From the NCBI GenBank assembly GCA_022572885.1, contig JACZVC010000020.1:1-63948 (forward strand): 63,948 nucleotides of DNA, read 5' to 3'. The position numbers and the translations under genes were made by a program. Below are positions 7,634 to 17,977 of this stretch, one piece after another (position 1 is the stretch's first letter; each line of letters opens with the position of its first letter). This stretch comes from Pseudomonadota bacterium. GTDB lineage: Bacteria > Pseudomonadota > Gammaproteobacteria > Steroidobacterales > MnTg04. Below the pieces are notes generated by a model. The model made no database searches. It worked only from the letters and a program-made list of their open reading frames with translations, and had not been told where the DNA came from.

Positions 7634-10600
7634 TCAGGCGTATTCGGCAAAGTCGACTTTGAACATCAGGCTGTACAAGACCGGCACGACTATCAGCGTC
7701 AGCATGGTCGCGAAAATCAGGCCGAAAATAATGGTTATCGCCAGCGGCTCCCACATCGGTCCGCCACCCAGCCACAACGGAACCATACCGGCCACGGTCG
7801 TCGTCGTCGTCAGCAGGATGGGGCGAATTCTCCGTTGAGCCGCCTTGACAATCGCATCCTGCGGAGTGATGCCCGGCTCGGCAGCTTCCCGGCCGATCCG
7901 ATCGATCAGAACGATAGCGTTATTGATCACAATGCCCGCCAGCGAAATGATGCCGAGCAAGGTAATGAAGCCGAAATAGGAGCGTGCCACCAGGAGACCA
8001 ATGACAACGCCAATGATTGACAAGGGAATCGTCAAAAGAATAATCGCCGGCTTGCGCAGGGAATTGAACTGACCGACCAGCAATAACAGGATAATCAACC
8101 CGGCAATCGGCAGTTTCTCATTAATAGACTTGCTGGACTCCACGGACTTTTCCATGACGCCGCCGAATTCCCAACCAAAGCCAAAACCCCAGTCGGCTGA
8201 TTCCTGGTCCAACCAGGGTTTTATTGCCTGGTTGACACCGGCGGCGGTATATCCCGGTTCCAGCAGGGACGATATGGTTACTGTCCGCAGGCGATCCCGC
8301 CTGCGAATTATTCCCGGCTCCCATAGCATCTTGGCCTCGGCAACCTGACTCAAGGGAACCGACCTGCCGGTCGCCTGCGAAAAAACGTTTATAGATTGCA
8401 CCACACCCAGTTCCGCGACCTGCGGGGCCCGAGAGCGCAAGACTATCGGTATGACCATGTCTTCCTCCCGGTATTCAGCCACTTCAACGCCCGACAGGAA
8501 AGTCTGCAGGGAGATTGCAATATCCTGATGGCTGACCCCCGCGAGTTTTGCCCGGGTTTCGTCAACCTCTACAGCAATTTTCTTGATTCTCGCGCCCCAG
8601 TCGTCGGAGACCTGCCTGGTACCGGGAATCTCAGCCAACTGGCGCCGGACCTTAGCCGAGATTTCAAATAACTGATCGCTGTCCCTGCCCGATATCCTGA
8701 TCTCGACCGGCGGCCATGCAGGCGGTCCCAGCGGCAATGGCCGTACCGTTGGCTTTAGCCCGGGGAAATTGTTTTCGAGAAAATCCCGGATCGGCGGGAT
8801 TAGTTGCGTTTCCAGAATATCCCTGCTGCTGGCATTGACAATGACGTAGGCATACTCCGGTGTGGGCGGCTCGGGACGGTAGGAAAGAATGTACCTCGGC
8901 GCTCCTTCGCCAATAAACGCCCCCCAGTTAATGATGCCGGAACCGCCGTTTTGGTCCGCCATCAGATTGTCGAACATGAATTGTTCCAGCGCGATGACTA
9001 CTTCGTTGGTGGGTTCGATAGGACTACCGACCGGCAATTCGATTTCAATCGCCAGTGTCGGTCTGTCGTTCGCCGGAAAAAAGATCTTCGGTATAATCCT
9101 GAATCCCTGTAGAGCCAGAAAAAACACGCCGCCGGCTACCAGCAGAACCAACGCCGGTCTCTTCAACGCACTGACGATGATGCTCCGGTATGCCGAATAA
9201 AAGCTGCCGGCATACTGCTCCCCGGATTGCTTTACTTTCATGAACGCGACACAAAGTATCGGAATAATAGTCAGTGTAAAAATCCATGAGCACAACAAGG
9301 TGATGGTTACGACCGTAAACAAAGAGGCGGTGTACTCGCCGGCGTTTGATTCCGCCAATCGAATCGGCAAAAAGGCCGCGGCTGTCGTCAATGAAGAAAC
9401 CAGCAAGGGAACTCGCAGCTCGGTCGCCGAATCGATAGCTGCGCGCCTGGCCGGTTTACCGTCCTTCATTTGCACCATGATCGATTCCGCCATCACGATC
9501 GCGTTATCGACCAGCATTCCGAGTGAGATGATCAGGCCCGCCAGCGACATCTGGTGGAGACCGACATCCAGCAAGCCCATAAAAAAGATCGCAGCGAACA
9601 TCGCCGACGGGATCAACGTCGCAACGATCAGGCCGGTTCGCAGCCCAAGAAACAGCAGCATGACCACGGCGACCACAATGATCGCCTGCAAGAGGTTTTT
9701 GGCAAAGGCATCGATTTTTCTCTCGACATCGCCGGCCTGAAATTGAATAAAGTCAAATTCCACGCCAACCGGGTAAACGCTGTTTGCTCTGCGGATCACA
9801 TCCTTGACCGCCTGACCAAGCTGCAAAATGTTGCCGCCTTCGCGCATCGATATTGCCAGCCCCAGGCTGCTGTCTCCGGCGCTCCGCATCATGCTTCGCG
9901 GCGGATCAACGTAACCGCGACGAATCGTTACCAGATCCTCCAGCCGAATCAGGTCCGTTGTTCCCGGTAGATTGATGATGCTACGGCCGAGTTCGGACAG
10001 TGACTCGAAGTTGCCCGATGGCTCGAGAAAAACCCTTTCATATGGGGTCGAGAAGTTACCGCCGGGCAAAATAATATTCCTGGACTCCAGGATCTGCTTG
10101 AGCTGGGTCGGCGACAAACCGAGTTCTGCCAGGCGCGAGTTGTTGAACTCGACAAAAACCTGCTCGGCCTGGTCTCCATATATCTCGACCTTGGCGACGT
10201 TGGTAATCAGCAGAAGCTCATCCCTGACATCATCGGCAATCGTTTTCAATTCACGATAGTCAAAACCGTCCCCGGTTATCGCAACGATCGTGCCAAAAAC
10301 ATCGCCGAATTCGTCATCAACGATCGGGCCGATCACATCTGCTGGCAACTGGGCGCGCGTATCCTCCACTTTTCGCCTGAGCTTGTCCCAGATAGGCTGG
10401 ATGTCCTTGTATTCATGTCGCAGGTTGACCTTGATAACCGAAATACCTGTTTTCGACCGGCTGCTAATGAAATCAAGTTCCGGAATTTCCTGGATCGCCT
10501 TTTCCAGCTTGTCGGTTACCAGATCCTCGATTCGTTTCGGGCTGGCGCCTGGCAATATGGTCCTCACTTGCGCGGTTCGAATCGTGAACCCCGGATCCTC

Positions 10601-10705
10601 GGCTCGAGGCATCTGCGTATAGGTCATCACTCCCGAAATCAACACGACAAAAAGCAGGGTCAGTGCAATGCGGTTTTTCTCGATGGCGAACTGCGTAATA
10701 TTCAT
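7634..10705 (-). CDS. RND-family inner-membrane efflux transporter
   Basis: 1023 residues, the normal length for the AcrB/MexB-like superfamily. An N-terminal transmembrane helix is followed by the porter domain (with LPGASPKRIEDLVTDKLE), a cluster of helices containing SLGMLVDNAIVMAESI (the proton-relay helix with its Asp), a second porter half and a final helix group with SLAGIVINNAIVLIDRI. It uses the proton gradient to export hydrophobic or amphiphilic compounds. Its ATG overlaps the stop of the adaptor gene by one base (TAATG), so the genes are coupled. Sequence style (MPRAEDPGFTIRTAQV) is that of environmental RND pumps of unknown substrate rather than of AcrB itself. Transcribed as the third gene after the outer-membrane factor and the adaptor. 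Confidence 0.93.
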   Translation of the reverse strand: MNITQFAIEKNRIALTLLFVVLISGVMTYTQMPRAEDPGFTIRTAQVRTILPGASPKRIEDLVTDKLEKAIQEIPELDFISSRSKTGISVIKVNLRHEYKDIQPIWDKLRRKVEDTRAQLPADVIGPIVDDEFGDVFGTIVAITGDGFDYRELKTIADDVRDELLLITNVAKVEIYGDQAEQVFVEFNNSRLAELGLSPTQLKQILESRNIILPGGNFSTPYERVFLEPSGNFESLSELGRSIINLPGTTDLIRLEDLVTIRRGYVDPPRSMMRSAGDSSLGLAISMREGGNILQLGQAVKDVIRRANSVYPVGVEFDFIQFQAGDVERKIDAFAKNLLQAIIVVAVVMLLFLGLRTGLIVATLIPSAMFAAIFFMGLLDVGLHQMSLAGLIISLGMLVDNAIVMAESIMVQMKDGKPARRAAIDSATELRVPLLVSSLTTAAAFLPIRLAESNAGEYTASLFTVVTITLLCSWIFTLTIIPILCVAFMKVKQSGEQYAGSFYSAYRSIIVSALKRPALVLLVAGGVFFLALQGFRIIPKIFFPANDRPTLAIEIELPVGSPIEPTNEVVIALEQFMFDNLMADQNGGSGIINWGAFIGEGAPRYILSYRPEPPTPEYAYVIVNASSRDILETQLIPPIRDFLENNFPGLKPTVRPLPLGPPAWPPVEIRISGRDSDQLFEISAKVRRQLAEIPGTRQVSDDWGARIKKIAVEVDETRAKLAGVSHQDIAISLQTFLSGVEVAEYREEDMVIPIVLRSRAPQVAELGVVQSINVFSQATGRSVPLSQVAEAKMLWEPGIIRRRDRLRTVTISSLLEPGYTAAGVNQAIKPWLDQESADWGFGFGWEFGGVMEKSVESSKSINEKLPIAGLIILLLLVGQFNSLRKPAIILLTIPLSIIGVVIGLLVARSYFGFITLLGIISLAGIVINNAIVLIDRIGREAAEPGITPQDAIVKAAQRRIRPILLTTTTTVAGMVPLWLGGGPMWEPLAITIIFGLIFATMLTLIVVPVLYSLMFKVDFAEYA

Positions 10706-11811
10706 TACTGTCGTGCTTGATCGTCATCGAGCAGGCGAACCTGCTGGCCATCTGCGAGCCGCCTTACACCGGCGGTCGCGACTCGCTCGCCGGCGAGCAA
10801 GCCACTGGTGATTTCCATACCCGAGCGGTCGAAATCGCTGGTTTGTACCGCTCGTCTTATCGCGACATAATGATCGCCGGTTTTTTCCAGTACGAAAACA
10901 TAGTTGCCCAGACGATCCTGGCCTACCGCGACCAGCGGTACGACGATTCTGCTGCGGGGATCCGCAGTGGCGATTGTTATCCGCACATCCACGGCCATGC
11001 CGGCACGCACCTGGTCACAGTTTTCGATGATAGAGACGGTCACGGGAAACGCGCTGCTCGTGCCGGATGGCGCTACGCCGACTTCCTTCACAACGCCTGC
11101 GAAAGCCTGGTCACCCAATGCGGCAATGATGATTTCGGCATTCATGCCAGTGCTTATGCTGCCGATCAAGGTCTCCGAGACCGATACCGCGGCTTCGGCG
11201 CAGATACCGCAGGTCAAGCGGAGGACTGCCTGCCCGGGAGAAACATTCTCATTTTCAATCGCAAATATTTCCGCGACACTGCAGGCTTGCGGGGCAAACA
11301 ATCGCGTATACGACAACTGGAGCTGGGTTGCTTCGAGTTGCTGATTGGCCGCGCGTACCTGGGCGCTGGCAGACTCCGATGCCGCGCGCGCGGCGTCGAG
11401 GTCGGCCTTTGAAGCACTGCGATTTTCGTACAGTCCCCGCGTTCTTTCATAACTGGCTTCGGCGTTCCTGAGTTCGGCATTCGCCTGCGCCAGACCGGCC
11501 AGCGCCTCCTGTCGCAGGACCTGGTAGTCCTTGGGATCGATCCGCGAAAGCAATTGCCCCGCCTCTACTTCCTGGCCCACATCGACCAGGTTCTCGGTAA
11601 TGTTGCCAGCCACGCGAAAACTCAAGGTACTGTCCAGTTCGGCGCGGGTGCTGCCCGAAAAAGAGTGAACGGAATCCGCGCCGCTGGCGGTTACGACCAT
11701 CGACCTGACCGGCCGAAACTCGGCCACTGGCTCAGGCTCGGAACGATCGCAGGCCCCGGCAGCCAGAGACAAAACTGCGATTCCAGCCAATGATATCTGC
11801 TTAAGTTTCAT
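10705..11811 (-). CDS. RND periplasmic adaptor subunit (membrane fusion protein)
   Basis: 368 residues from the ATG at 11811, chosen because GAGGGGAG lies just upstream and the N terminus then begins with a lipoprotein-like signal (LSLAAGAC). The order is typical of HlyD/AcrA-type adaptors: a lipoyl half-motif (NLVDVGQEVEAGQLLSRID), an alpha-helical coiled-coil hairpin rich in Ala, Glu and Gln (about 90-150), the second lipoyl half with APQACSVAEIF, then a beta barrel and membrane-proximal domain. Two cysteines in LTCGICAE are unusual. It bridges the RND pump downstream and the TolC-like protein upstream. Its start is 41 bases beyond the end of the outer-membrane factor gene. Confidence 0.92.
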   Translation of the reverse strand: MKLKQISLAGIAVLSLAAGACDRSEPEPVAEFRPVRSMVVTASGADSVHSFSGSTRAELDSTLSFRVAGNITENLVDVGQEVEAGQLLSRIDPKDYQVLRQEALAGLAQANAELRNAEASYERTRGLYENRSASKADLDAARAASESASAQVRAANQQLEATQLQLSYTRLFAPQACSVAEIFAIENENVSPGQAVLRLTCGICAEAAVSVSETLIGSISTGMNAEIIIAALGDQAFAGVVKEVGVAPSGTSSAFPVTVSIIENCDQVRAGMAVDVRITIATADPRSRIVVPLVAVGQDRLGNYVFVLEKTGDHYVAIRRAVQTSDFDRSGMEITSGLLAGERVATAGVRRLADGQQVRLLDDDQARQ

Positions 11812-11851
11812 TTGCTCCCCTCGATCCAGGTACCGCGCGACGCCGTCACGA

Positions 11852-14227
11852 TCACCTGGCGTCCAACGGCGCAACGCCTTGCTCCCGGTAGTACTTTTCC
11901 AGCGCGTCCAGCCAGTCCTGCCAGGCCAGCGGATCCATGATCAATTCAAAATTCGACTGCGCCCGCAAGAGATTCATAAAATCAATGACAAAACTGTACA
12001 GGGAAACCGCGGCATCCAAATCTGCCGACAACGCTGCGTTTTGCGCATCAATCAGATCGGTTATGGAAACGGCTCCCCGCGAATAGGAATCGGTCACCAG
12101 GGCCAGGCTGCCGCGCGCGGCGGCGGCGGCGTCCTGAGACAACTCTATTGAGGCGTAGGTATGTCTGGCCAGTTGCAGCATCGTTCGCACCCTCGCTTCA
12201 ACCGCTTCAGCCACCGCCGCCTCCTGCACCTTTAATTTTCTTGCCTCGTGCCGCGACTGCGCCAGAATCGCCTTCCTCGCGCCTCCCGAAAAAAGAGGCA
12301 GGCGCGCTTCAAGAAGAACCGTCCAGTTGTCGTCGGCCCGGGCTATACCCAGTGCGCCCGCAGGCTGGCTAGCGGAGCCGATGCCACCGCGATCGAGTAC
12401 GTGGCTGGAAGTCCCGCGCAGACTGACATCCGGCACGTAGAAATCCCTTTTGTCCGCCAGGACCTGTCTTTCCTGCGCAAGCACCAGGTTTCTGGCCACC
12501 TGAAGTTCCGGTGATAACTGCAATGCGCTGTCAATGACGAATTTCTGAAACACATCCCAAACCACCGGGTTGCCGACAAAAGTCTGGAATCTTTCATCCT
12601 GCACCTGGCTCATTGCCTGGTCCAGACCAGGATCGGCGGTAATAAACCCGAAATTCTGCGGCAAATGCATGACCCGGCTGACTTCGATGGCCGCAGCGCG
12701 CCTGGCCGCTTCCGCCGCGAGCAAATCCTGCATGTCGGCCGCTATCTGGCTTTCCCAGCGCAAAACGTCGGAGCGCCCTGAAAAGCCGATCGCCGCCCTC
12801 GCCTTGGCCAGTTCCAGGTTGAGCCGGGTCACTTCGAGGTTTGATTGGCGTACCTGTTCGACGGCATTGGCGCTGAGCAACTCGAGATAACTGACCGCGC
12901 TGGCCTGCAACGTGTCCAGCGACCGGCTCTTGAAAACCAGGTCGCTCGAATCCCGCAGGTATCTTGATATGGCCAGGGCGGCGCTGGCATCGTCCGAGTA
13001 GATCAACTGAGACGCGGTAAGCGCAGCGCTGATCGTGGTTTCGGATTGAAAAAACGGGTTTGCTTGTTCTTCGTTGACCCGGACTCCCGCTGCGGAGACT
13101 GAAAGTTGCGGCAACAGAGCACCCCTGGCCGCTTTTAGCTGCTCTTCTGCCACATCGATCTCAAAGCGTGCCGCCTTCAGGTCCAGGTTGTGTTGCATCG
13201 CCCCGCGCATCGCACCCAGCAATGTCAACGGACGGGCATCGTCGTATTCGTTGTCAAAAAGTTTTTCGGCGCCGGTCAGCACCGCCCAGCGCGGCAGCAC
13301 GCCGATGGCACGGGCGGTTGCCATATTGATGACCAGCCTCGACGTCCCGATATCCGGGCTGCGCGGCGCCGGATCGGCCTCGTTTAGCAGCAAGGCCTGC
13401 AATGTCAGTGCAATGCGCCGCGCCAGCCGGGTATGATCGGCGGTCAGTCCGGTTGCCGACATCATCAGACCCATCTCGACCTCTAATTTTCCCAGCAATG
13501 AAAAGCTGGGAAGCTTCCTGGCTATAAGACGTTGCGCGAGGTATTTCATTTGCTGGTCGTCAAGACGAAACAGTGGCGCCACATAAACCATGTCTGTTTC
13601 TTCGGGAATCTGACTGATCAAATCGTCGACTGAGTCCTCGACGGCAATAACGCTGACCTCAAAATACGGGTTCTGCCTTAGCCTTTCTGTCATGGCCTGG
13701 ATCGCTGGCACACCTTCCAGCGTCACCCGCTGCACCAGAACAGCCAGGTGACTGAACGGCACCGCATTACGAATAAGCGTCAGGTCGTCATCGACGCTAT
13801 GAAAGCTGCTCAGGTAAACGAAGTTGCTGCGCAGCGCTTCGCGTCGTTCGGCAAAACCCTGCAGCTTCGCATCAATCACAATGGGCGCGATGACCGGTTT
13901 TTTGAGCTTCCCCCACTGACCGGCCAGGTGTGATGCGACAACGCCGTTTGCGATGATCACTTCGACTTCGGGGTCATTGAGCAGCTCGTTGAGCGCCGAA
14001 CGAACGCCCTCGACCGTCCAGCCGCCATTCAATTGTTTGTCCACGGGCATCCGCACATTGAATTCCGGCAGCATCAGGTCGCTGAACTCTTTTTGCAGCA
14101 GTTCAACGGGAATGACAGCACGGGATTGCAATCCGTCGCCCAACACACCAACGACAACATCGCGGGCCCATCCCGTGCTCGTGATTACAAACAGGAAACA
14201 GGCAAGGACGGCAATTCTTCCAGTCAT
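11852..14227 (-). CDS. Fusion of ABC substrate-binding-like domain with TolC-family outer-membrane factor
   Basis: 791 residues, against about 430-500 for ordinary TolC proteins. After a signal peptide (1-21), residues about 22-330 resemble the periplasmic ABC_sub_bind family: DVVVGVLGD at the start, EVEVIIANG, DMVYVAPLF, and the closing INMATARAIGVLPRWAVLTGAEKLFD, which resembles the NLKTAKALG end of that family. Residues about 345-775 form two outer-membrane-efflux repeats with long Ala/Glu/Arg-rich helices, including LPLFSGGARKA and ITDLIDAQNAAL. The gene opens the efflux operon with the adaptor and RND pump. I infer a tripartite pump whose exit duct carries its own periplasmic binding module. 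No stop or frameshift separates the halves. Confidence 0.87.
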   Translation of the reverse strand: MTGRIAVLACFLFVITSTGWARDVVVGVLGDGLQSRAVIPVELLQKEFSDLMLPEFNVRMPVDKQLNGGWTVEGVRSALNELLNDPEVEVIIANGVVASHLAGQWGKLKKPVIAPIVIDAKLQGFAERREALRSNFVYLSSFHSVDDDLTLIRNAVPFSHLAVLVQRVTLEGVPAIQAMTERLRQNPYFEVSVIAVEDSVDDLISQIPEETDMVYVAPLFRLDDQQMKYLAQRLIARKLPSFSLLGKLEVEMGLMMSATGLTADHTRLARRIALTLQALLLNEADPAPRSPDIGTSRLVINMATARAIGVLPRWAVLTGAEKLFDNEYDDARPLTLLGAMRGAMQHNLDLKAARFEIDVAEEQLKAARGALLPQLSVSAAGVRVNEEQANPFFQSETTISAALTASQLIYSDDASAALAISRYLRDSSDLVFKSRSLDTLQASAVSYLELLSANAVEQVRQSNLEVTRLNLELAKARAAIGFSGRSDVLRWESQIAADMQDLLAAEAARRAAAIEVSRVMHLPQNFGFITADPGLDQAMSQVQDERFQTFVGNPVVWDVFQKFVIDSALQLSPELQVARNLVLAQERQVLADKRDFYVPDVSLRGTSSHVLDRGGIGSASQPAGALGIARADDNWTVLLEARLPLFSGGARKAILAQSRHEARKLKVQEAAVAEAVEARVRTMLQLARHTYASIELSQDAAAAARGSLALVTDSYSRGAVSITDLIDAQNAALSADLDAAVSLYSFVIDFMNLLRAQSNFELIMDPLAWQDWLDALEKYYREQGVAPLDAR

Positions 14228-14376: not shown

Positions 14377-15570
14377 CTATTTCATGCTCACGCTCACGCT
14401 GCCTGAGCCGGTATCGATGATCCCCTGGCCATCGCCCTGGCCAATCCGTGCCTCGAATCGATTGTCTCTCGAACGGACTCCACTCAGATTGGGCAGATCG
14501 ACGTGGATGCCGCCGGAACCGGTTTCGATTCGCAGCACCATGTTTAGCGAATGATCGGTCTTGACTCGCACGCGGCCGCTACCGGTATCCAGACGCAGAC
14601 TCCTCACGGCGCCGAGATCGCCCTCAACAATGATACTGCCGCTGCCGGTATCGATATCGACAATTTTGCCTGCCGTGATATTTTTCGCACTCACGCCGCC
14701 TGAGCCCGTATCCACTTTTAGCGAACCGGTGACTTTATTCAGAATTACCCGCCCGGAACCGGTATCAACGAGTATTTCTTCTGCCTGTACATTGCTCAGT
14801 TCGACAGAACCAGATCCCGTATCGGCATTCACATTGCCTTCGACATCGGTGACGGTGACAGAGCCGGAACCGGTATCGGCGTTAACATTGCCTTCGACAT
14901 CGGTGATGGTGACAGACCCGGAGCCGGTGTCGGCGTGTATGTCTCCTGCATAACCGGTAACGCTAACGCGGCCAGAACCGGTGTCGGCGCGCAAAGACCC
15001 GCGGCTCTTTTCAATACTGATCGCCCCCGAACTGGTATCGAGATCCAGATCTGCATGCACGCCGTTGCCTTTGATCGGGCCAAACCGGTTTTTTACCTGC
15101 AGGCGGCTCCCGGCCGGCACGCGGATTACCAGATCCACATGAACTTTCAGTGCATCGTTCCTGGATTTGCTATTGACCGATACTCTCTTTTTCTGATACC
15201 GGGTCCTCGCCCAATTGTTGCCCCGCCTTGCACCGTCCTTGTATGTGTATTTTCGATAATCGTCCACCGGGTACAGCACCTGGAAATGATGCTTGCCGCC
15301 TTTCTTTACTGAATAGAAGCCAATCAAATCGGCGACCTCAGACGCGGCCAGGCCTGCACTTTTGTCTGCCTTCACGGTCGCCTGGATTTCGAATTTATCG
15401 CCGGTCGCCGCTAACAGCTTTATCGAGCCGGCCAGGTTGTCGACCTCCAGGACCTGGCTATCGACGGTGAATTCCTTCTTTGTCTCAACATCCGCTGCGG
15501 ATAAAGGGCCTGCAAGGGCAAAGGCCACGAACGTCAGCCAGATGGGGAGTAGTGTTTTCATTTTGTTCAT
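14377..15570 (-). CDS. Exported DUF4097-family beta-repeat protein
   Basis: 397 residues from the ATG at 15570, which has CCGGAG at correct distance and gives a clean signal peptide (LTFVAFALAGPLSAAD). The C-terminal half consists of about ten short repeats, each with a DTGSG motif every 17-24 residues, typical of DUF4097 / adhesin-like beta-solenoids. Two neighbouring repeats are nearly identical in DNA as well. The N-terminal part contains a basic loop (YKDGARRGNNWARTRYQKKR). It is the last gene of an operon with an ABC permease, an ATPase and a GntR regulator, a frequent genomic companion set for this family. Its function is unknown; a surface or periplasmic beta-helix is likely. Confidence 0.85.
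   Translation of the reverse strand: MNKMKTLLPIWLTFVAFALAGPLSAADVETKKEFTVDSQVLEVDNLAGSIKLLAATGDKFEIQATVKADKSAGLAASEVADLIGFYSVKKGGKHHFQVLYPVDDYRKYTYKDGARRGNNWARTRYQKKRVSVNSKSRNDALKVHVDLVIRVPAGSRLQVKNRFGPIKGNGVHADLDLDTSSGAISIEKSRGSLRADTGSGRVSVTGYAGDIHADTGSGSVTITDVEGNVNADTGSGSVTVTDVEGNVNADTGSGSVELSNVQAEEILVDTGSGRVILNKVTGSLKVDTGSGGVSAKNITAGKIVDIDTGSGSIIVEGDLGAVRSLRLDTGSGRVRVKTDHSLNMVLRIETGSGGIHVDLPNLSGVRSRDNRFEARIGQGDGQGIIDTGSGSVSVSMK
14831..14938. repeat. Two near-identical 54-bp tandem repeats inside the DUF4097 gene
   Basis: The segments 14831-14884 and 14885-14938 differ at only a few bases and encode 18-residue units (DTGSGSVT.TDVEGNVNA). Flanking units in the gene share the DTGSG core but are much more diverged, so this pair is a recent duplication that could expand or contract. 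Confidence 0.75.
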
Positions 15571-15682
15571 TGGCTTGTCTCCGGAATACCATTGGTTAAA
15601 TCTGTATGGCATTTGATGCGCGAACGAGGGCCCTGGTTTAAATCGGGGTCCGTAGTGTGGTTTTTTTGCGCTATTGCTTTCC

Positions 15683-16633
15683 TCAGGTCTCGTCGCGGTA
15701 ACGGCGAAGGAAGATCGCGCCGGTGATGAATCCCGCGGCAACGATAATTCCGCCGTACAACCCGGGCTCTGAAAGTAGCTGTGTAAAACTGACCATCTGG
15801 CTAATAGAAGCGGGCACTGATACGTCAAGGCTCCCATGCAGGCTTCTGGAAACAATGTCTACCGAGGATGCCGTATCCCGAAACATGACGAGAAAGCCTT
15901 CTACGCGACTAGTTAGCAGGTTCCGGAAATACTCACTGTCGAACAACCAACGCTCGACAAAAACAATACTAAGCGGCGGTAGCACAGCCCAAAGAAATAC
16001 CGAGCGTCGCGCCCAGACTGAGACCAGCAGCAACCAGCTGGCAATCGGCAGATACCACAACAACAGGCCGGCGCCGCTTTCTATCGCAATTGCGATACCG
16101 TGAAACAAGGTGTCCGGCTGCCACAGGACCAGCCAGCCGTTCCCGCCAAGCAGGCCGATTGTGACCGCCGCGATGAGTTGCAAAACGATCCAGCACACCA
16201 CAACAGAAAACAGCGCGACAACCGGCACCAAAACGGTGGCTGTTACGAGCTTTGACAGTACGGTCTCAGTATCCGAGATTGGCAACGACTTCCAAAAAAG
16301 GATGCTGCGATTCTTGCGCTCTGCATACAAACTATCGAGCATGTAAAATATTGCGACAACCGTTCCTGCTAAAAAAATGATAATGAAAAGTAAGGACATT
16401 ATGATCGGGCTGCCAACTCGTAGATAATGCGGCGCAAGCATTTCCGACGATAGATTACGTTCTACCATCCACTCGGAAAATTGACCTGCGGCCCCGAATT
16501 CACCGCCGGCCGCAACCTTGAAGAGCACAAGCAGAGTTACAACGATTAATACAGCAGCCGTAATCACCGGCCCGCGAATCAGGCCTTTGTGTTCCCAGGT
16601 CTCCCGGCGAATCAGGTATGCAAATGCGTTCAT
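15683..16633 (-). CDS. ABC transporter permease
   Basis: 316 residues with about six hydrophobic segments (for instance about 22-42, 75-98, 120-150, 180-215, 290-310), typical of ABC-2-like permeases. A cytoplasmic loop after the second segment reads DSLYAERKNRSILFWKSLPISD, a conserved feature of ABC-2 permeases found with YtrB-type ATPases. A stretch of about 90 residues between the last helices is predicted outside the membrane. The start overlaps the ATPase stop by four bases. It is followed after about 110 bases by the DUF4097 gene. The exported substrate is unknown; related systems respond to envelope stress, which is background and not shown here. Confidence 0.85.
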   Translation of the reverse strand: MNAFAYLIRRETWEHKGLIRGPVITAAVLIVVTLLVLFKVAAGGEFGAAGQFSEWMVERNLSSEMLAPHYLRVGSPIIMSLLFIIIFLAGTVVAIFYMLDSLYAERKNRSILFWKSLPISDTETVLSKLVTATVLVPVVALFSVVVCWIVLQLIAAVTIGLLGGNGWLVLWQPDTLFHGIAIAIESGAGLLLWYLPIASWLLLVSVWARRSVFLWAVLPPLSIVFVERWLFDSEYFRNLLTSRVEGFLVMFRDTASSVDIVSRSLHGSLDVSVPASISQMVSFTQLLSEPGLYGGIIVAAGFITGAIFLRRYRDET

Positions 16634-17487
16634 GCGGCCTCCCCTCGGACCTTCGCCACAAACAAGTCGGCAACGCTAGGCGTACGAACGTCGCCGAGCT
16701 CGCTCAGCTTATCCTTTGCAATGCCGTCGTAAAGAAAAACGGAACGGCCAAAATCCTGGTGCTGATATACGGGCCGCAAGGATTCCGCCCGTTCCCGGTT
16801 ATCCGGGTGGACCGCCACTTCCACGAAATTTTCGGCCACCGCCTCCATGCTGGCGTCCAGGACGATGCGTCCCTTATTGATGAACAGCAGATCGGTGAGA
16901 ATGTACTCGATCTCCTCAACCTGGTGGGTGGTGATCAGGATGGTGCGTTTTTCGTCGAAATAATCCGACAGCAGCGCCCGATAAAAATCCTTTCGATAAA
17001 GGATATCCAGTCCCAGCGTGGGCTCGTCCAGAACCAGGAGTTTCGCGTCGATGGCCATGATCAGGGCCAGGTGAAGCTGCGTGACCATGCCCTTGGACAG
17101 CTGACCGACTTTCTTGTCCAGCGAAACATCGGTGCGGGAAAGGAAATCCAGCGCCCGGGAGCGATCGAACTTCGAGTGTATCGCGTCCATGAAATCCACG
17201 GCGTTGCTGACTTTCAGCCAGCGCGGCAATACGGCGACGTCGGCGACAAAACAAACATCCTGCATCAATAAATTACGCTGGCGATAAGGATCCAGGCCAA
17301 GCACTTTCAGCTCACCTTCGAAATTGGTCAGGCCCAGGATCGCCTTGAGAGCCGTGGTCTTGCCGGCGCCATTGGGCCCGATCAGCCCGACGATTCTTCC
17401 CTCTTCGATCGAAAAATCGGCTCCGTCCAGGGCACGGGTCTTGCCATAATTTTTGGTCAGCCCCCTGGCTTCGATGATGGCGCTCAT
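16630..17487 (-). CDS. ABC transporter ATP-binding protein
   Basis: 285 residues with Walker A GPNGAGKTT at about 37-45, a signature LSKGM in place of the canonical LSGGQ, Walker B LLVLDEPTLGLD and a switch His in ITTHQ. The length and the SKG-type signature match the YtrB/BcrA-like subgroup of exporter ATPases. It overlaps the GntR regulator upstream by four bases and the permease downstream by four bases, so all three are translated as a unit. It energises the neighbouring permease. Confidence 0.9.
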   Translation of the reverse strand: MSAIIEARGLTKNYGKTRALDGADFSIEEGRIVGLIGPNGAGKTTALKAILGLTNFEGELKVLGLDPYRQRNLLMQDVCFVADVAVLPRWLKVSNAVDFMDAIHSKFDRSRALDFLSRTDVSLDKKVGQLSKGMVTQLHLALIMAIDAKLLVLDEPTLGLDILYRKDFYRALLSDYFDEKRTILITTHQVEEIEYILTDLLFINKGRIVLDASMEAVAENFVEVAVHPDNRERAESLRPVYQHQDFGRSVFLYDGIAKDKLSELGDVRTPSVADLFVAKVRGEAA

Positions 17488-17876
17488 GATTCCTTGTCTC
17501 CCGCCTGTGCTTTGGCTTTTTTCTTGTCGGCTTTGTTCATCAGATCTTCCAGGCTAAGTCCGAGCCTGTCTATGCTGGCCACAACCAACGGCCATTCCTG
17601 ATCCAGAAATCTTTGTCTCTCATTTTTGAGTAACTTGGTTTTTGCTCCGGCGGTCACGAACATGCCAAGGCCACGCTTTTTCTCAACCAGGTCGTCGTCA
17701 ACCAGTTCCTGGTAACCTTTGAGCACAGTCAGCGGGTTGAGGCGGTATTCTGCGGCGACGTTTCTCACCGATGGCAAGGCATCGCCATCCTTGAGTACAT
17801 CCTCCAAAATCATCGCCACAACTTTGTCCCGCAACTGGCGATAAATGGGCTGATTGTCGTTCCAGTTTGGATCCAT
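17484..17876 (-). CDS. GntR-family (YtrA-type) transcriptional regulator
   Basis: 130 residues from the ATG at 17876 (AAGGCA upstream). The N-terminal winged helix has QPIYRQLRDKVV followed by GDALPSVRNVAAEYRLNPLTVLKGYQEL, the classic GntR helix-turn-helix, and EKKRGLGMFV in the wing. The effector domain is a short helical tail with a Lys-rich end, as in the YtrA subfamily, which usually represses its own operon with an ABC transporter. The gene overlaps the ATPase gene by four bases. Self-regulation of this operon is expected from the family; no operator was proven here. Confidence 0.88.
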   Translation of the reverse strand: MDPNWNDNQPIYRQLRDKVVAMILEDVLKDGDALPSVRNVAAEYRLNPLTVLKGYQELVDDDLVEKKRGLGMFVTAGAKTKLLKNERQRFLDQEWPLVVASIDRLGLSLEDLMNKADKKKAKAQAGDKES

Positions 17877-17977
17877 GTTTTCTGCCTTGTAGTCCTTGAG
17901 ACGTCCTTGCGCCTCGCCTCGGCCTATCGATTGCAACCAGAGACGAGCCTCATGGTTGCTGTATTTGCCAGCCGCAC

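Follow-up and report, generated by a model that had tools for sequence, protein, structure and literature searches.

A periplasmic binding-protein-like domain fused to the TolC-type duct of bacterial export pumps with two kinds of motor

The fusion of a domain homologous to periplasmic substrate-binding proteins (SBPs) with a TolC-type outer-membrane duct is conserved over many bacterial families and two kinds of pump motor. We propose, at a probability of about 0.4, that the N-terminal domain acts as a ligand-responsive control of duct opening or of adaptor docking.

The fused gene and its operon

In the window, that is, the whole stretch of 63,948 nucleotides analysed here, a single uninterrupted frame of 791 amino acids runs on the minus strand from 14227 to 11852, while the plus strand at 11852-14227 has stops throughout. 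A first-pass annotation, made from the sequence alone, had described an uninterrupted frame at these positions, without giving the strand, with a TolC-type duct as its C-terminal part and at the head of a TolC-adaptor-RND operon, and it is borne out on each point: OEP is matched twice over the complete duct (9.9e-38), and genes matching RND_mfp and ACR_tran follow directly. The gene order on the minus strand is fusion duct (14227-11852), adaptor (11874-10705) and RND permease (10705-7634), and because their ends overlap or touch, the three pump genes most likely form one operon. The features are as follows.

14165..14227, minus strand: signal peptide, residues 1-21 (MTGRIAVLACFLFVITSTGWA), read from the sequence as the signal peptidase I type
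13253..14161, minus strand: N-terminal substrate-binding-protein-like domain, residues 23-325, assigned to the ABC_sub_bind / TrpX family, class I fold by homology
13223..13252, minus strand: short linker, residues 326-335, poorly conserved
11945..13222, minus strand: TolC-type outer-membrane duct with two OEP repeats, residues about 336-761 (OEP 9.9e-38, TIGR01844 1.8e-36)
10705..11874, minus strand: periplasmic adaptor, RND_mfp (TIGR01730 1.5e-63; HlyD_D23 and HlyD_3)
7634..10705, minus strand: RND permease of 1023 amino acids (ACR_tran 2.9e-155)

The signal peptide has no lipobox close to the mature start, and 25 of 29 orthologues likewise have no Cys within the 12 residues preceding the N-domain, AxA/AQ-type ends being typical. 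The linker boundary is marked by a fall in conservation to 0.35 at residues 324-330. Beyond it, TolC chains in the PDB match duct residues 342-757 (7.6e-12), where E. coli TolC also aligns. The fusion thus resembles TolC and other outer membrane factors (OEP, PF02321) in its two OEP repeats and in its operon with an adaptor and a motor, but standard TolC, OprM and CusC lack the N-terminal SBP-like domain of about 300 residues.

The adaptor carries a lipoprotein-type signal (LSLAAGAC), and its true start is likely to be the ATG near 11811. NCBIfam RND permease models match the permease down to 1.4e-144, under their curated cut-offs, so the permease is left without a named subtype. Its TM4 motif (window 7637-10705) reads LVDNAIVMAES, a single Asp followed by Asn; the AcrB TM4 motif is Asp-Asp, and the permease may thus be a proton-relay variant. 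Upstream of the pump, on the minus strand at 14377-17936, lie genes for a GntR-type regulator, an ABC ATPase, an ABC-2 permease and a DUF4097 'toastrack' protein in which DTGSG units recur, and similarly sized frames stand upstream of the pump in two close relatives. These genes and the pump may be part of a bigger envelope-stress cluster.

Homology of the N-terminal half and the fate of its ligand cleft

The first-pass annotation had likened residues about 22-330 to ABC_sub_bind proteins and had suggested HMM searches of both halves. The duct half is recognised directly by OEP, whereas the window's N-terminal half, searched alone against Pfam, gives no useful match even at E<=10, and its significant matches come through the profiles of its relatives. 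Four of 15 orthologues match ABC_sub_bind in Pfam (best 9.1e-6), the copy at L122 matches it at 2.9e-6, and the homologue in Sulfuricurvum does so at 9.8e-10, above Pfam's curated cut-off. When a 29-row profile of N-terminal halves was compared with PDB sequences, the three best matches were 3lkv (2.4e-9), 3lft (2.8e-5) and 6hni (4.3e-5), which are VC_1101, SP1069 and CD0873 with phenylalanine, tryptophan and tyrosine bound, respectively (PMC6816091). Alignment by hhalign of the fused N-terminal halves with nine free-standing ABC_sub_bind proteins gave 99.8% probability and E=5.3e-30 over 306 columns. Judged from these profiles, which belong to the relatives and not to the window protein by itself, the case for homology with the ABC_sub_bind / TrpX periplasmic binding proteins is decisive, and the earlier reading of this half, which a lack of any significant profile match would have overturned, stands. 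The class I SBP fold is likewise assigned by homology, the AlphaFold model of the N-terminal half having a pLDDT of 39 from only three near-identical input sequences; the full-chain model, on which the test of a trimeric barrel rests, has a pLDDT of 33, also from three near-identical sequences.

The likeness to TrpX / ABC_sub_bind proteins (PF04392; SP1069, VC_1101, CD0873) extends across most of the N-terminal half and includes a common C-terminal INMxTARxIGxxP stretch. Unlike these proteins, the N-terminal half stands outside any ABC importer and is joined to an export duct; no ABC importer permease or ATPase genes are present in the operon, the partner being an RND or an ABC-2 exporter. It also differs in that the TPxAQ and DN motifs of the solved binders are replaced. 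On these sequence grounds we regard it as akin by descent, yet do not class it as an aromatic amino acid binder, and since the canonical amino-acid motifs are gone, 'substrate-binding' here denotes homology and not demonstrated function.

Cleft positions were mapped in the 29 orthologues by HMM alignments to the solved binders. TPxAQ has become [VLFY]-[VLI]-x-[SN], the DN pair is x-R in 24 of 29, Tyr replaces the Gly of NvTG in 27 of 29, and the tDP motif keeps its Asp, also in 27 of 29. New and largely shared residues (G95, D119, Y138, R221, S243) occupy positions where ligand-contact motifs align. In CD0873, VC_1101 and SP1069 the specificity residue is Tyr279, Tyr262 and Gln284, respectively (PMC6816091). 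Position 265 of the fusion aligns with it and is fixed by clade, being W in all six gammaproteobacterial copies with ABC-2 partners and V or M in the six RND copies of family f7. The motif changes and the pattern at position 265 suggest a cleft re-made for other ligands. Conservation at the preset cleft positions does not significantly exceed that in the rest of the domain (0.545 vs 0.511, p = 0.20), and it peaks toward the linker, at residues 264-283 and 300-320. With the usual motifs lost and the cleft not significantly more conserved, ligand binding by the N-terminal half is plausible but unproven.

Distribution, pump partners and history

The distribution was surveyed in samples of the window's order, class and phylum, together with a Sulfuricurvum plasmid. 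The N-terminal half occurs in 46 of 396 genomes of the order, at 47 places, and all frames are at least 756 amino acids long save three, which run off contig ends. In the class sample it was found in 21 of 369 genomes at E<=1e-30, across about 20 families. Every intact copy in the order has the two halves joined, and the close class-level copies do too; no intact free-standing N-terminal half of the fusion's clade was found among the order (396) and class (369) genomes sampled. A phylum-wide sample of 398 genomes gave no additional fusion and a scan of viral contigs gave no relatives, while a genome scan with the single window protein as query returned near-identical relatives only. The fusion is also carried by one plasmid from beyond the phylum, in Sulfuricurvum kujiense (Campylobacterota).

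The weaker class-level matches, with E about 1e-13 to 1e-16, come from free-standing proteins 383-409 amino acids long; three of these proved to be ABC_sub_bind. The nearest unfused relatives found for the N-terminal half are SBP-like proteins in the genomes G1042, G1058 and G956. In G1042 two of these, of 409 and 383 amino acids, are neighbours (L128:8176-10646); beside the free-standing copy in G956 no importer genes were recognised. The sole separated N-terminal half is at a decayed locus in G993 (L129:7421-9321), where its frame comes to a stop and the next one encodes just the 219 C-terminal residues of an RND protein; the duct, the adaptor and the greater part of the RND gene are missing.

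Although the window comes from a 66-contig draft genome, the chance that assembly or gene calling has merged two adjacent genes is negligible, the frame having no internal stops, the one separated N-terminal half being a decayed locus, and the fusion recurring in dozens of other genomes and on the complete, annotated Sulfuricurvum plasmid. This recurrence, with open frames of at least 756 amino acids in most of the order's 46 genomes, also rules out a MAG chimaera.

The Sulfuricurvum protein (WP_041667226.1, plasmid pSULKU01, 803 amino acids) has the same two-domain architecture as the window protein, but adjoins genes for HlyD, an RbbA-like ABC protein and an ABC permease where the window fusion adjoins RND. 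NCBI names it 'ABC transporter substrate binding protein', so that the fusion architecture is already in the databases under an SBP name. We found no description of this architecture or of its function in the open-access full-text literature, although absence there is not proof, and the first-pass annotation had also known of no described role. A paper on Burkholderia in which both Pfam families are mentioned assigns them to separate proteins.

At 20 loci with sufficient flank (the window; L016-L023, L025-L028, L117, L118 and L121-L125) the fusion, adaptor and RND genes follow in that order; the adaptor and RND genes were tested with Pfam in the window and five others, and the remaining loci were judged by size, order and strand. 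At six further loci (L111-L116, with Pfam applied to L111) a HlyD adaptor, an ABC ATPase/ABC-2 protein of about 911 amino acids and an ABC-2 permease of about 375 amino acids precede the fusion, and Sulfuricurvum has the same gene set with the fusion placed first. HlyD/RbbA-like/ABC-2 exporter partners are thus found at seven loci in all, one of them in Campylobacterota. One fusion (L119:7326-9641) is an orphan: a cytochrome c gene and a phosphoribosyltransferase gene flank it, and neither an adaptor nor a motor is encoded close by. At L029 and L120, near contig ends, there is an adaptor-sized gene only. The idea raised in the first-pass annotation, that the fusion might always occur with RND genes, therefore fails on 20 RND loci against seven ABC-2 loci and one orphan. 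With two motor types among its partners, the fusion is a feature of the duct rather than one of RND pumps.

The other neighbours (a TonB receptor, a dipeptidase, a chaperonin, FHA/AAA, a mechanosensitive channel) are varied, and none was consistent across the loci examined as a clue to the substrate. At L018:558-8676 (G019) the fusion operon comes directly after a run of genes that read from their sequence as terpenoid-type: mevalonate-pathway kinase/decarboxylase-like, squalene/phytoene synthase-like, HMG-CoA reductase-like and an HpnH-like radical SAM with DUF3463. Such genes might point to a lipid or terpenoid cargo, but were not seen at the other loci examined.

Trees of the N-terminal and C-terminal halves give matching main groups, with weak support for the deep branches. 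The six gammaproteobacterial copies with ABC-2 partners form one clade in both trees (0.99), and Sulfuricurvum joins this clade in the C-terminal tree at 0.88. The agreement in main clades fits a single old fusion. Comparison of the window with two close relatives gives a dN/dS of 0.08-0.12 for the N-terminal half and of 0.10-0.16 for the duct; purifying selection acts on both halves, and the N-terminal half is constrained as much as the duct.

What the domain may do

The signal peptide would put the N-terminal half in the periplasm, and the mature N-terminus of TolC and OprM, as seen in their structures, is outside the channel. We infer that the domain sits on the outer face of the duct by the equatorial ring, three per trimer, where it could touch this ring, around which the helices of TolC pivot upon opening (PMC13095208). 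The open and closed states of the domain, most likely governed by a small periplasmic ligand other than a plain aromatic amino acid, would favour or disfavour duct opening or adaptor docking, and the pump would be active in the presence of its substrate or of a signal for that substrate. Since the module stayed with the duct through the change between RND and ABC-2 motors, its job would lie with the duct or with the cargo, not with RND chemistry. More tentative is the specific form of a ligand-gated exit duct, a channel that would open or assemble once its own SBP domain has sensed a small molecule in the periplasm. To our knowledge no such control point has been described for TolC-type ducts.

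Ligand-responsive control is favoured by the homology of the N-terminal half with ligand-binding SBPs, by similar purifying selection on both halves, by the agreement of the half-trees with all intact copies fused, and by the two motor types, the new shared residues at contact positions and the clade-fixed position 265. Against it count the cleft without extra conservation (p = 0.20), the loss of TPxAQ and DN, and the strongest conservation beside the linker, which would be expected of a structural role too; the clade-specific residues may reflect shared ancestry only.

Somewhat less probable is that the domain has turned into a structural collar: ligand binding would have been lost, and the domain would be a fixed brace round the equatorial ring that holds the duct in the envelope or stabilises the trimer. 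The E. coli lipoprotein YbjP, which sits on this outer side of TolC and binds it 3:3 at the equatorial domain, offers an analogue, TolC having no lipid anchor (PMC13095208, PMC13082787), and the fusion proteins are mostly without a lipobox as well. As a periplasmic partner at the equatorial ring YbjP resembles the N-domain in the location proposed here, but it is a separate lipoprotein from an unrelated family (DUF3828), whereas the N-domain is built into the duct. The missing canonical ligand motifs, the conservation maximum by the linker instead of in the cleft and the interchangeable motors all suit a brace; the invariant or near-invariant polar residues D31, D119 and R221 where ligand loops align, and the clade-specific change at the specificity position, do not.

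Still less probable is capture and hand-over, in which the domain would catch the pump substrate in the periplasm and pass it to the adaptor or the RND entrance, as an SBP in reverse. The SBP homology and the periplasmic side indicated by the signal peptide are compatible with this, and AcrB-type RND porters do take substrate from the periplasm. TolC geometry, however, sets the N-terminus far from the RND entrance, there is no evident way from the duct exterior into the sealed lumen, and the domain is kept with ABC-2 motors, whose substrate is expected mainly from the cytoplasm or inner membrane. Of the two roles proposed in the first-pass annotation, substrate sensing or loading, loading into the duct is the less likely, because the domain is joined at the mature N-terminus, which structures of TolC and OprM place outside the channel. 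We therefore favour ligand-responsive control over a fixed collar, and a collar over capture and hand-over.

The control of tripartite pumps and their choice of substrate are for the most part attributed to the inner-membrane motor and the adaptor. With a conserved binding-protein domain borne by the duct, and kept across RND and ABC-2 motors, a step of control or recognition would lie at the outer-membrane end. As the isolated N-domain is small and probably soluble, its ligand can be sought directly, and that ligand could show what this uncharacterised pump family exports.
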